Below are positions 4,815 to 8,664 of a stretch of 8,664 nucleotides of DNA, piece by piece. How positions within the stretch are numbered: position 1 is the first letter of the stretch; each line of letters opens with the position of its first letter. Source of the stretch: Candidatus Methylomirabilota bacterium (GTDB lineage: Bacteria; Methylomirabilota; Methylomirabilia; Methylomirabilales; JACPAU01); the NCBI GenBank assembly GCA_016180705.1, contig JACPAU010000024.1:1-8664 (forward strand), given 5' to 3'. The notes below the pieces were generated by a model that searched no databases, was not told the DNA's origin, and saw nothing but the letters and a program-made list of their open reading frames with translations. The position numbers were made by a program, and so were the translations under genes.

Positions 4815-5036
4815 ATGCCGCGCAGAGCATCCAAAAGCCGCCGCGCCACGCCCGCCCGCCGGAAGGGAGAGCGGCGCCGCGCCACGCCCGCCCGCCGGAA
4901 GGGAGAGCGGCGCCGACTCAAGGTGGACCCCAGGCAGATCGTCTTCATTGATGAGCAGGGGATCCACACGGGCCTCCCGGAACGGCGGAGTGGGAAGGAC
5001 CGGCGTCGGTCCGGTCGGCGCAGGGACCGCTCGTGA
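4815..5036 (+). CDS. Small Arg/Lys-rich protein with a duplicated 12-residue basic unit
   Basis: This 73-residue protein of unknown function is extremely basic. Residues about 9-33 contain two copies of the unit RRATPARRKGER, encoded by an exact 36-bp tandem duplication. The middle (VDPRQIVFIDEQGIHTGLP, about 37-55) looks like a short ordered element. The tail reads PERRSGKDRRRSGRRRDRS and resembles the ERRxGxDRR stretches found next to some PilZ-type or response-regulator domains. No such domain is present here. The basic arms suggest nucleic-acid or membrane-phosphate contact, which is an inference only. The start is fixed by an excellent GAGGAGG site 5 nt upstream. The TGA overlaps the GTG of the M20 peptidase gene in a GTGA arrangement, so the two are translationally coupled. 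A real small gene is likely, though its homologues are not known to me. Confidence 0.65.
   Translation: MPRRASKSRRATPARRKGERRRATPARRKGERRRLKVDPRQIVFIDEQGIHTGLPERRSGKDRRRSGRRRDRS
4839..4915 (+). repeat. Exact 36-bp tandem repeat, about 2.1 copies
   Basis: Every base from 4839 to 4879 equals the base 36 positions later (4875 to 4915), giving two full identical copies plus 5 bp. The period is 12 codons, so the duplication keeps the reading frame of the small basic protein. Lack of any mismatch suggests a recent duplication, or slippage in GC-rich DNA. Confidence 0.92.
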
Positions 5037-6575: not shown

Positions 6576-7319
6576 GTGCCCGTGGTGATCCTCGAGTGCC
6601 GCGGCGTCTCCCTCCACTACCAGGGCGGGGACGGGGCGGCCGGGCGCGAGGTCCTGCGCGGTGTCTCGTTCACCCTGAAGGCCGGAGAGCGCCTGAACGT
6701 GGTCGGCCCCTCGGGCGGCGGCAAGTCCACGCTCCTCAGGCTGCTGAACCGGTTCGAGGACCCCGACCAGGGGAAGGTCCTCTTCCACGGGAAGGACCTG
6801 CGCACCTACGATCCCCTGGAAATCCGCCGGCGGATCGCGCTCACCCTCCAGACTCCGGTCATGTTCGACGGGACGGTCCGGGACAATCTGCTGCGGCGTC
6901 CCCGGGAGCGCCGGGCGGCGCTCACCGAGGCGGATCTCCGCGGAGCGCTGGAGGATGTGGCCCTGGATGCGACCTTCCTGGACCGCGTGGCGGGCGAGCT
7001 GTCCGGGGGGGAGAAACAGCGGGTTGCGATCGCCCGGGTCCTCCTGATGCGCCCGGAGGTCCTCCTGCTCGACGAGCCGACGTCGGCCCTGGACCCCGTG
7101 GCCGCCGGGCACCTGATCGAGACTGTGACCACGCTCAATCAGGAGAAGGGGCTGACGCTGGTGGTGGTGAGCCACGACCTGAACGTCGTCCGGAGACTCT
7201 CCGGACGGCTCCTCTTCCTGGCCGGGGGCGAGGTCATCGTGGACGCCGAGACCTGCGCCTCCCTGGAGCACCCGACGCACCCGGCCGTCCGCGACTTCCT
7301 CGCCGGGAGTTTGCCGTGA
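6576..7319 (+). CDS. fetA: ABC transporter ATP-binding protein, FetA/YbbL type
   Basis: This complete 247-residue ABC ATPase has all motifs: Walker A GPSGGGKST (44-52), Q-loop Q92 in LTLQTPVMF, signature LSGGEKQR (142-149), Walker B VLLLDEP (162-168), D-loop SALD (170-173) and switch H200 in VVVSHD. The phrase LQTPVMFDGTVRDNL after the Q-loop is characteristic of the YbbL/FetA group. The pairing with a UPF0014 permease in the next gene supports this; E. coli FetAB is linked to iron export and oxidative-stress resistance. The start is GTG 6576, or possibly the in-frame GTG at 6582, because GGGAGG at 6566-6571 is 4 nt from the first and 10 nt from the second. The TGA overlaps the permease GTG (GTGA). 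The ATPase itself looks intact, although its partner gene is damaged. Confidence 0.9.
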   Translation: MPVVILECRGVSLHYQGGDGAAGREVLRGVSFTLKAGERLNVVGPSGGGKSTLLRLLNRFEDPDQGKVLFHGKDLRTYDPLEIRRRIALTLQTPVMFDGTVRDNLLRRPRERRAALTEADLRGALEDVALDATFLDRVAGELSGGEKQRVAIARVLLMRPEVLLLDEPTSALDPVAAGHLIETVTTLNQEKGLTLVVVSHDLNVVRRLSGRLLFLAGGEVIVDAETCASLEHPTHPAVRDFLAGSLP

Positions 7320-8024
7320 CCGAGGTCCTTGACATCGCTCCCTGGCGGCTTGCCGCGGCGCTGCTCCTCATCGCCGTGGTCTTCGTCCTGTCCTTCCGGG
7401 AGCGCCTCGGCCTGGAGCGCTCCCTCCTGATGGCGACCGTTCGGACCTTCCTCCAACTGTTCCTGGTCGGCTACGTGCTCCGGGCGATCTTCGCCCTGGA
7501 GCACTGGGCGCCGGTCCTGGGCGCGGTGGCCGTGATGGTCCTGGTGGCGACCCACACGGCGGTCTCCCGGCTGAAGCGACGGGTGGCCGGCATCACGGCC
7601 TTCGCCGCGATCGCCCTGACGGCGGGGTCCGGGCTCACCCTCGTTTTCGTGACCGAGGTGGTGATCGGCGTCCGGCCCTGGTTCGACCCGCAGTATGTGA
7701 TTCCCATCGCCGGCATGATCGTGGGGAACGCGATGAACGGGGCGGCGCTGGCGGGGGAGCGTTTCCAGGCCGAACTGAAGAACCGGGTCCCGGAGGTGGA
7801 GACCCTCCTCGCCCTGGGGTTCCCGGCCCCGGAGGCGTTAGCAGGGCTGCGACAGGAGGCGATCCGCGCGGCGCTGATTCCTCGTGGCCGTCCGGTATCA
7901 GATCGTTGTGATGCTGATGCTCACGGCGGCGGTCGCGTTCACGAGCGTCCTCTTCCTCGCGCTGCTCGTGCGGCGGTACTACACCCCCGCCCACCAACTG
8001 CGCCGCCACCTGGTAGGGGGCTGA
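7316..8024 (+). pseudogene. fetB: UPF0014/FetB-type permease with an internal deletion and frameshift
   Basis: The N-terminal 189 codons are a normal FetB/YbbM permease: hydrophobic helices from residue 10 on, RTFLQLFLVGYVLRAIF, YVIPIAGMIVGNAMN (127-141), VPEVETLLALGFPAPEAL, then IRAALIP ending at codon 189 (7880-7882). In intact FetB, IRAALIP is followed by about 28 residues including the hallmark 'SLPGMM.G..(F/L)AG' before a 'xxYQIxV' helix. Here that block is missing. The family sequence resumes in another frame at 7884 (VAVRYQIVVMLMLTAAVAF..TPAHQLRRHL) and stops at TGA 8022-8024. The size suggests a loss of about 83 nt. Without frame change, translation runs to TAA 8039-8041 (241 residues) with an unrelated Pro/Arg-rich tail. 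The GTG start overlaps fetA's TGA. A true inactivating deletion and an assembly error are both possible; the change is more than a single-base error. Confidence 0.82.
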
Positions 8025-8048
8025 GCGGACGGGGGAGGTAAGCCCTAT

Positions 8049-8068
8049 GCCTCAGGATCGGTTGAGGC
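8049..8068 (+). terminator. Weak hairpin after the fetAB operon
   Basis: GCCTCA (8049-8054) and TGAGGC (8063-8068) form a 6-bp stem with an 8-nt loop, 24 nt past the fetB remnant stop. There is no U-run after it, so it may aid termination or mRNA 3'-end stability rather than act as a classical terminator. Confidence 0.3.
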
Positions 8069-8089
8069 GAGCCTAGAAAGCGTTTGAGC

Positions 8090-8118
8090 TTGACGCCCGT
8101 TTGCCCTTGTGTTACAAA
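8090..8118 (+). promoter_or_regulatory. Promoter of the abiEi gene (-35, 17-nt spacer, extended -10)
   Basis: TTGACG (8090-8095, 5 of 6 positions) and TACAAA (8113-8118, 4 of 6) are separated by the optimal 17 nt. TGT (8110-8112) adds an extended -10. Transcription should begin near 8125, leaving a leader of about 46 nt. The -10 overlaps the left outer arm of the inverted repeat at 8110-8157, so a protein bound there would be placed to block RNA polymerase. Confidence 0.65.
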
Positions 8119-8157
8119 ACATCGGTAGTTGTTAACATGTACCGCGGTCTCGTAACA
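8110..8157. promoter_or_regulatory. Nested inverted-repeat operator upstream of abiEi
   Basis: The whole element is symmetric about 8133.5. The core is an 8-bp perfect palindrome TGTTAACA (8130-8137). Flanking it are CGGTA (8123-8127) and TACCG (8140-8144). The outer arms are TGTTAC (8110-8115) and GTAACA (8152-8157), whose centres lie 21 bp (two helical turns) from the core centre. Counting base by base, 18 of 24 mirror positions are complementary. The outer arms repeat the TGTTA of the core, as expected for several bound copies of one regulator. It overlaps the -10 and the predicted start site. AbiEi antitoxins are known to repress their own operon through promoter inverted repeats, so this is the likely operator. 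Confidence 0.65.
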
Positions 8158-8170
8158 GGTGGGCCTGGAC

Positions 8171-8664
8171 GTGAAATCTAATACTCAGAGGGCTCTCGAG
8201 CTGGTGCGCCAAGCAGGCGTGCTCCGCCCGCGCGATCTGGATCGCCATGGCATCCAGCGCGAGCACCTGCAGCGTCTCCTACGTCGCGGCCAGGTGGAGC
8301 GGGTGGGCCGTGGCCTCTACACGCTTCCCGGGGCCGCTCCCACCGAGCACCAAAGCCTGGTAGAGGCCTGCAAGCGGGTTCCGCGGGGCGTGGTTTGCCT
8401 GCTGTCGGCGCTCCGTTTCCACGAGCTGACCACCCAGATCCCCTTCGAGGTCTGGATCGCGATTGACCAGAAGGCCTGGCGGCCCAGGAGGGGGAGCCCA
8501 CGGCTGCGGATCGTCCACCTGTCGGGGAAGGCGCTGAAGAGCGGCGTGGACGAGCACCGCGTCAAAGGGGCAACGATCCGCGTCTACAGCCCGGCCAAGA
8601 CGGTGGTGGACTGCTTCAAATTCCGTAACAAGACCGGGCTCGATGTGGCACTGGAAGCGCTGCG
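8171..8664 (+). CDS. abiEi: AbiEi-type antitoxin / winged-helix regulator, 3' end outside window
   Basis: The 164 visible complete codons match the AbiEi antitoxin family of type IV (AbiE) toxin-antitoxin and phage-abortive systems. Residues about 4-54 form the N-terminal winged helix: TQRALELVRQAGVLRPRDL, the recognition helix region GIQREHLQRLLRRGQV, and the wing VGRGLYTLPG. The following AbiEi core includes SALRFHELTTQIPFEVWIAI (79-98) and VYSPAKTVVDCFKFRNKTGLDVALEAL (138-164), which is highly typical of the group. The GTG start at 8171 has AGGTGGG 7 nt upstream (8157-8163). The promoter and operator upstream fit negative autoregulation. The toxin gene abiEii (a nucleotidyltransferase) would be expected directly downstream but is not visible. 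Codons such as AAA, TCT, ACT, CAA and CTA are commoner here than in the neighbours, which hints at horizontal acquisition. A solitary AbiEi-like regulator without a toxin cannot be excluded. Confidence 0.85.
   Translation, partial: MKSNTQRALELVRQAGVLRPRDLDRHGIQREHLQRLLRRGQVERVGRGLYTLPGAAPTEHQSLVEACKRVPRGVVCLLSALRFHELTTQIPFEVWIAIDQKAWRPRRGSPRLRIVHLSGKALKSGVDEHRVKGATIRVYSPAKTVVDCFKFRNKTGLDVALEAL

Follow-up and report, generated by a model that had tools for sequence, protein, structure and literature searches.

The contig analysed here, a window of 8664 bases, ends within an abiEi gene that is preceded by a 48-bp inverted repeat, and the question raised by this locus is what the repeat does and which parts of AbiEi, if any, would recognise it. 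AbiE is a widespread toxin-antitoxin family of phage defence, and its antitoxin has two roles, neutralising the toxin and repressing the operon. The window spans an entire contig of an assembly with a completeness rating of 64%, and PF13338 (AbiEi_4) indicates that the encoded protein has an AbiEi-type N-terminal winged helix (COG5340 membership). Only 164 residues precede the contig end, which cuts abiEi; abiEii is therefore not visible there. The start codon is probably GTG 8171, which was preferred over the alternative GTG 8159 because of a likely ribosome-binding sequence and the start positions of homologues.

8171..8664, + strand: abiEi, 164 whole codons before the contig end (PADLOC AbiEi 2.9e-71; PF13338 5.1e-12)
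8157..8163, + strand: AGGTGGG, likely ribosome-binding sequence, 7 bases 5' of GTG 8171 (sequence)

The nearest complete homologue among the matches listed, locus L029 of Candidatus Rokuibacteriota, is 71% identical; its abiEii overlaps abiEi by 4 bases and matches PF08843 (4.3e-47), and its modelled AbiEi, compared with 6y8q, has the C-terminal antitoxin domain of the AbiEi fold. Among plasmid abiEi loci, for which the gene table is incomplete, abiEii was annotated in at least 14 of 19. In that same incomplete table, abiEi stands with no annotated adjacent abiEii in L202, L207 and L216, and a TnpB-family gene comes after abiEi in L202.

The repeat at 8110-8157 reads TGTTACAAAACATCGGTAGTTGTT to the left of its axis and AACATGTACCGCGGTCTCGTAACA to the right. 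As an earlier note on this DNA had claimed, complementary bases stand at 18 of the 24 mirror positions; among the other even axes of the 8664 bases the maximum was 15, and 18 was attained by none of 3000 dinucleotide-preserving shuffles of 8025-8171 (shuffle maximum 16). Extended to 31 mirror positions, the dyad has 22 complementary ones, again matched by 0 of 3000 shuffles. The three concentric inverted elements described in that note were all recovered (TGTTAC at 8110-8115 with GTAACA at 8152-8157, CGGTA at 8123-8127 with TACCG at 8140-8144, and TGTTAACA at 8130-8137), and its placement of the outer arms about two helical turns from the core agrees with an outer-arm centre 21 bp from the axis. 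Taken by themselves, the innermost 16 bp, with 6 of 8 pairs, are ordinary, an equally good dyad occurring in 43% of shuffles. The parts of the dyad are as follows.

8110..8157, no strand assigned: predicted AbiEi-type operator, 48 bp, inverted 24-bp half-sites 8110-8133 and 8134-8157 (dyad, profile, spacing)
8110..8115, + strand: left outer box TGTTAC, half-site 1-6, predicted winged-helix contact (left-right covariation; covariation with residues 29-35)
8120..8127, + strand: left middle box CATCGGTA, half-site 11-18, predicted C-terminal-domain contact (left-right covariation; covariation with residues 100, 101 and 103)
8130..8137, no strand assigned: palindromic core TGTTAACA, judged incidental (1 of 172 loci; no clear covariation)
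8140..8147, - strand: right middle box, TACCGCGG on the + strand (left-right covariation; covariation with residues 100, 101 and 103)
8152..8157, - strand: right outer box, GTAACA on the + strand (left-right covariation; covariation with residues 29-35)

Loci for comparison were taken from related genomes (15 of 28 places, the window included, 13 weak ones with E above 1e-6 having been dropped) and from a one-genome-per-species scan (the best 80 of 552); L077 had too little upstream DNA, and the resulting set of 94 loci contains duplicates (L002 = L029; L005, L006 and L090). A symmetric profile of a 48-bp even-axis site was trained iteratively, and each locus was scored with itself left out. 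The profile gave at least 9.8 bits in 92 of the 94 abiEi loci, which include the best 80 of 552, and at most 8.2 bits in 1880 base-shuffled regions scored with the full profile; the window operator, with 45.2 bits, ranked 15 among the same 94 loci. Phyla among the matches listed were the Rokubacteria, Acidobacteria, Planctomycetes, Cyanobacteria, Proteobacteria, Chloroflexi, Bacteroidetes and others. The half-site consensus comprises TGTTnC, an A followed by an A/T-rich stretch, sTCGGTA and nTTrTn. When spacing was left free, strong half-site pairs had a length of 48 bp in 63 of the 66 training loci with such pairs (86 scanned) and, among held-out loci (126 scanned), in 56 of 65 strong pairs, with 49 bp in 6 of 65. 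The two misses among the 94 loci were L058, which has a 49-bp dyad instead, and L014, where no such dyad was found upstream of abiEi; the odd-axis operator of L058, an Acidobacterium, is close in sequence to the 48-bp operator of L061. On the viral contigs L118, L119, L126, L127 and L131-L135, which carry more distant abiEi genes, the 48-bp dyad frame is kept and the boxes are rewritten (for example, TGGATA...TATCCA).

The dyad could in principle be the site of an unrelated global regulator that lies before abiEi by chance, dyads being used by many regulators. This is the least probable of the readings weighed here: the site turns up before abiEi genes of chromosomes, plasmids and viral contigs alike, its bases track residues of AbiEi, and it occurs once in its own, 64% complete assembly, where no second copy was found at up to 3 mismatches. 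A regulon beyond abiEi was likewise set aside, no further site appearing in that assembly at this threshold.

The earlier note had proposed that the upstream regions of abiEi homologues be aligned and inspected for conserved dyads with compensating changes, and had counted a lack of conservation as evidence against an operator at the abiEi promoter. The dyad proved to be conserved, and its two halves change together. In 80 non-redundant sites picked by the profile, the halves agreed in 1260 of 1920 cells, versus 995 +/- 17 after the right halves were redealt (highest of 2000 shuffles, 1050). The left-right excess in these sites was found at half-site 2-7 (z 3.3 to 8.7), 9 (z 3.2), 12 (z 8.8) and 14-17 (z 3.8 to 9.6), position 13 being nearly invariant; no clear left-right covariation was seen in the core, half-site 19-24 (z -1.2 to 2.1). 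With 172 loci, among which 86 held-out sites had been picked by symmetry, core positions 19 and 23 gave z 3.9 and 2.9, values that leave room for a weak constraint on the operator core. The weight that the note had placed on TGTTAACA, and on a TGTTA unit common to core and arms, was not borne out: TGTT at half-site 21-24 in both halves occurs in the window only (1 of 172 loci), and the core was rejected as the key element on this count and for the lack of clear covariation at 19-24 in the 80 sites. Judged from these alignments, the operator is an outer box plus a middle box per half, and the perfect core palindrome is incidental.

For 86 non-redundant loci out of 114, mutual information was calculated between AbiEi residues 1-120 and the positions of the half-site, the viral loci L117, L129, L130 and L136, which had no consistent site, having been excluded from this training set by hand; L115 had too little upstream DNA. 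Residues are counted from GTG 8171, and the numbers of the L029 model run 2 higher. One cluster linked the outer box with residues 29, 30, 31, 32 and 35, and a second linked the middle box with residues 100, 101 and 103. In the L029 model (mean pLDDT 91.2), for which the best matches among solved folds were S. agalactiae AbiEi (6y8q, TM 0.72) and then Rv2827c (1zel, TM 0.48), the first cluster lies at the beginning of the recognition helix (33-40) and immediately before it, and the second forms a C-terminal-domain loop, flanked by strands 96-100 and 114-118, in which pLDDT averages 86. Each half-site holds two boxes that covary with different domains of AbiEi, an arrangement that the earlier note had missed.

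8255..8275, + strand: codons of residues 29-35 (QREHLQR), start of the recognition helix (covariation; L029 model helix 33-40)
8468..8479, + strand: codons of residues 100-103 (QKAW), C-terminal-domain loop (covariation; L029 model)

In the window, Q29, R30, E31 and R35 correspond to T4, C6, T3 and G2 in both halves, Q100 and K101 correspond to T17 and G16 in both halves, and W103 corresponds to A12 in the left half and C12 in the right; with these residues, the predicted AbiEi fits its own operator. Among the covarying pairs, those of Arg103 with G12, Lys101 with G16, Arg or His100 with the G opposite C17, Asn or Gln100 with the A opposite T17, Glu100 with the C opposite G17, and Arg30 with the G opposite C6 all fit known contact chemistry.

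Residue-base rules were fixed before new loci were examined, and held-out sites were then placed by symmetry alone; agreement between their halves is therefore not independent evidence, and the identity of the shared base is. Loci were excluded if more than 90% identical to those used or if they had no symmetric site of 14/24 at -75 to -20 (18 of 44 in set 1 and 22 of 82 in set 2); short or partial sequences made up 5 of 110, and four weak matches to phage records were left out. Set 1, of viral contigs, plasmids and three genome loci, retained 26 usable of 44 non-redundant loci, and set 2 retained 60 of 82. Three usable loci of set 1 were not entirely new: L172 and L187 share contigs with L117 and L129, whose sites were known before the rules were fixed, and the sequence of L149 had been obtained earlier, though unexamined.

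The rules mostly held in these sequences, with Fisher p values that ignore relatedness. Both halves carried G12 in 11 of 12 loci with Arg103 in set 1 (other residues 0/14) and in 31 of 32 in set 2 (1/28). With Arg or His100, C17 was present in both halves in 7 of 10 (0/16) and 25 of 33 (1/27), the other 8 of these 33 lacking it in one or both halves. The corresponding values for sets 1 and 2 were 11/12 (others 3/14) and 20/25 (5/35) for Lys101-G16, 10/12 (2/14) and 35/39 (1/21) for Arg30-C6, and 17/17 (5/9) and 32/37 (11/23) for Arg35-G2. Trp103-C12 held in 10 of 12 loci of set 2 (others 2/48) and was not significant in set 1 (2/3; others 3/23; p 0.085); Asn, Gln, Gly or Lys100 with T17 held in 8 of 9 loci of set 1 (others 4/17) and was not significant in set 2 (4/9 vs 11/51; p 0.15). 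For Glu100-G17, the single locus of set 1 failed the rule, and in set 2 both halves agreed with it in 2 of 4 loci and one half in the other 2 of 4 (others, in both halves, 0/56). Swapped controls were mostly null, R30-G12 and R30-C17 among them in both sets; the exceptions, Lys101-G12 (p 0.003, set 2) and Arg103-G16 (p 0.053 and 0.048 in sets 1 and 2), were read as linkage within the 100-103 loop. When all 164 x 24 pairs were ranked afresh and blind in the held-out loci (86), 103-12, 31-3, 101-15, 100-17, 30-6 and 101-16 came out on top.

Shared ancestry was then taken into account. Over the 172 loci, both halves carried G12 in 88 of 92 with Arg103 (other residues 1/80), C17 in 49 of 62 with Arg or His100 (1/110) and C6 in 100 of 118 with Arg30 (7/54); the state of Arg103 was unrelated to half-site 17 or 6. 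On a tree made without columns 27-38 and 97-107, with independent pairs counted on well-supported branches, Arg103 was gained or lost at least 29 times. Arg103-G12 gave 8 independent pairs, with a mean of 7.8 in the same direction and 0 opposite (median p 0.008), and Arg/His100-C17 gave 10, with a mean of 7.9 in the same direction and 0 opposite (median p 0.008). The remaining rules went in the same direction and were not significant in this control: Arg30-C6 (2.3 of 5 pairs), Trp103-C12 (4.0 of 6), Arg35-G2 (4.1 of 7, 0.2 opposite), Lys101-G16 (3.3 of 6, 0.4 opposite), Asn/Gln/Gly/Lys100-T17 (6.2 of 10, 1.1 opposite) and Glu100-G17 (0.8 of 3). The tree-controlled case is good for two pairs of the C-terminal domain and only suggestive for those of the winged helix.

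Given the 48-bp frame, its conservation before abiEi, the left-right compensation and the covariation of the boxes with residues 29-35 and 100-103, all of them properties of the sequences themselves, 8110-8157 is probably the AbiEi operator of a type IV toxin-antitoxin operon, autorepressing and with boxes read by the winged helix and a C-terminal loop. As to its working, we infer AbiEi binding with one monomer per half-site, the domain order, the promoter position and repression. Two AbiEi monomers would occupy the two inverted 24-bp half-sites, one each, the recognition helix of the winged helix reading the outer box TGTTnC and the loop of the C-terminal domain reading the middle box nsTCGGTA, with the winged helices outside and the C-terminal domains toward the axis. 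Box centres are separated by about 11 bp within a half and by 19 bp across the axis, a spacing at which one face of the helix could carry all four boxes, the C-terminal domains pointing inward. Bound AbiEi would then block RNA polymerase at the abiEi promoter, giving negative autoregulation as in S. agalactiae.

We consider it likely that the C-terminal antitoxin domain of AbiEi, with its nucleotidyltransferase-like fold, carries a second base-reading head with a near one-to-one code, and that operators have been rewritten with the protein within a fixed 48-bp frame. In this code, Arg103 would specify G12, Lys101 would specify G16, and residue 100 would select T17 as Asn or Gln, C17 as Arg or His and G17 as Glu. 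Such a base-reading loop in the C-terminal domain would be a new claim. An unlikely alternative is that AbiEi binds with a C-terminal domain that reads no bases, the middle box serving for bending or for a second winged helix and residues 100-103 covarying indirectly, for instance through a contact between monomers. This would accord with published work that ties the domain to cooperativity and DNA bending (PMC7319586) and with the leakage of some swapped controls within the loop, but the strongest pairs are specific in position and agree with contact chemistry, Arg103-G12 above all (88/92 vs 1/80). If a second winged helix bound the middle box, moreover, that box should track residues 29-35; it does not, the R30-G12 and R30-C17 controls being null.

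The position of the operator relative to the abiEi promoter was predicted from the best promoter match of the locus.

8090..8095, + strand: predicted -35 hexamer TTGACG, external to the operator (best promoter match here)
8113..8118, + strand: predicted -10 hexamer TACAAA, within the left outer box (17 of 80 sites share the offset -21)

With a 17 bp spacer, these hexamers make 9 of 12 consensus matches and would place the transcription start near 8125. The description of the dyad in the earlier note as lying over the -10 and start site is a prediction: the predicted TACAAA falls in the left arm, and a stricter scan of the window, with T demanded at the sixth -10 base, found no promoter. Across the 80 sites, the best -10 match began 21 bases before the axis (-21) in 17, the window included, at 0 in 8, at +19 to +22 in 30 and elsewhere in 25. 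In the 172 loci, 5-of-6 matches to TTGACA occurred 28 times at -45 to -42 from the axis, about 2 being expected (upstream rate 0.33% per position), and in 40 loci at -2, with further peaks at +16 (12) and -12 (10); 5-of-6 matches to TATAAT occurred at 0 in 27, with further peaks at -6 (13), -19 (10) and -10 (9). The matches at -45 to -42 alone fall outside the operator, and those inside it are partly due to the operator consensus. A scheme of three discrete promoter registers was only partly borne out, given the extra TATAAT and TTGACA peaks. The window falls in the first of these, and the right half of its operator therefore covers the predicted start and the early transcribed region. In the proteobacterial loci L070, L076, L088, L101, L104 and L107, TTGACA runs across the operator axis; at axis sites of this type the -10 would lie some twelve bases before the start codon, which predicts a leaderless or nearly leaderless mRNA.

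The same register bears on the notion that the dyad acts as an RNA hairpin, an attenuator or processing site in the abiEi leader, and makes it very improbable: the left arm holds the predicted -10, and the transcript would thus lack that arm. The window folds at z -2.45 (5 of 200 shuffles as good) and L029, L070 and L032 at z -6.0 to -8.3, but any long DNA dyad folds by construction; moreover, the primary sequence is conserved and tracks AbiEi residues, and the AbiEi of S. agalactiae is described as binding the matching site as DNA (PMC3985639).

The kind of operator favoured here, read by AbiEi as DNA, is known. The S. agalactiae AbiEi, a monomer, gave one gel-shift step per half-site (IR1 and IR2) and represses; the full-length protein was needed, and the winged helix was proposed to lie on the outer ~11 bp with the C-terminal domain on the remainder of the box (Dy et al., 2014; PMC3985639). 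The covariation supports this proposed contact of the C-terminal domain with the inner half-site and adds candidate residue-base pairs, of which the available part of that paper assigns none (PMC3985639). Cooperativity was not observed by Dy et al. (2014; PMC3985639), and later work described positive cooperativity and DNA bending, tied to the C-terminal domain of AbiEi (PMC7319586). As in the published description of the S. agalactiae abiE operator, two inverted half-sites overlap a promoter, here predicted, upstream of abiEi, the total length is nearly the same, and outer elements TGTTGC/GCAACA there resemble TGTTAC/GTAACA in the window (PMC3985639). In contrast, the S. agalactiae operator has the spacing 23-3-23 (49 bp, odd axis), which the window operator does not have (48 bp, even axis) and for which the latter is filed as a variant; its middle part is unlike TCGGTA, and its -35 lies within IR1, whereas the left outer box of the window holds the predicted -10 (PMC3985639). 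At 48 bp versus 49 bp in S. agalactiae, the reading of the window operator as a compact version, put forward in the earlier note, is not supported.

In M. tuberculosis, the AbiEi-family antitoxin of Rv2827c-Rv2826c likewise represses through 23-bp inverted repeats over its own promoter, but there are two repeat pairs with 13 bp between the repeats of a pair, and Rv2827c has a larger C-terminal domain and negative cooperativity (PMC7319586). At the AbiE promoter of a Streptococcus suis ICE, AbiEi is reported to bind either repeat, IR1 or IR2, repression needing both, and to bind oriT as well (PMC11062541), whereas no second site was found in the 64% complete assembly here. By these descriptions, as far as they were available, the 48-bp frame and the TCGGTA box set the present operator apart from those of S. 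agalactiae and M. tuberculosis. A distinct operator class, as had been suggested, is reasonable on the strength of the frame and of a widespread TCGGTA box unlike that of S. agalactiae, though not on that of TGTTAACA, a core found in 1 of 172 loci only. Relatives of the 48-bp operator may be present in Figure S8 of Dy et al., which gives the repeats of other abiE loci. Residue-level base readout by AbiEi was not found in a literature search that covered main texts, chiefly openly accessible ones.

By naming residues and bases, the covariation indicates exchanges expected to alter specificity, makes the 2014 proposal testable residue by residue, provides a rule by which AbiE operators could be located from the protein, and predicts which of several AbiE systems sharing a cell could regulate each other. 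If the proposed code is true, AbiEi specificity would be predictable from sequence.

Two further features of the window were recorded. A broken UPF0014 (FetB-like) permease gene at 7316-8024 adjoins abiEi, its pieces corresponding to PF03649 profile positions 2-179 (7316-7876) and, in another frame, 211-242 (7884-8021); it is either a pseudogene or an assembly error. At 4839-4915, a perfect 36-bp tandem repeat of 2.1 copies lies within a small Arg-rich ORF.
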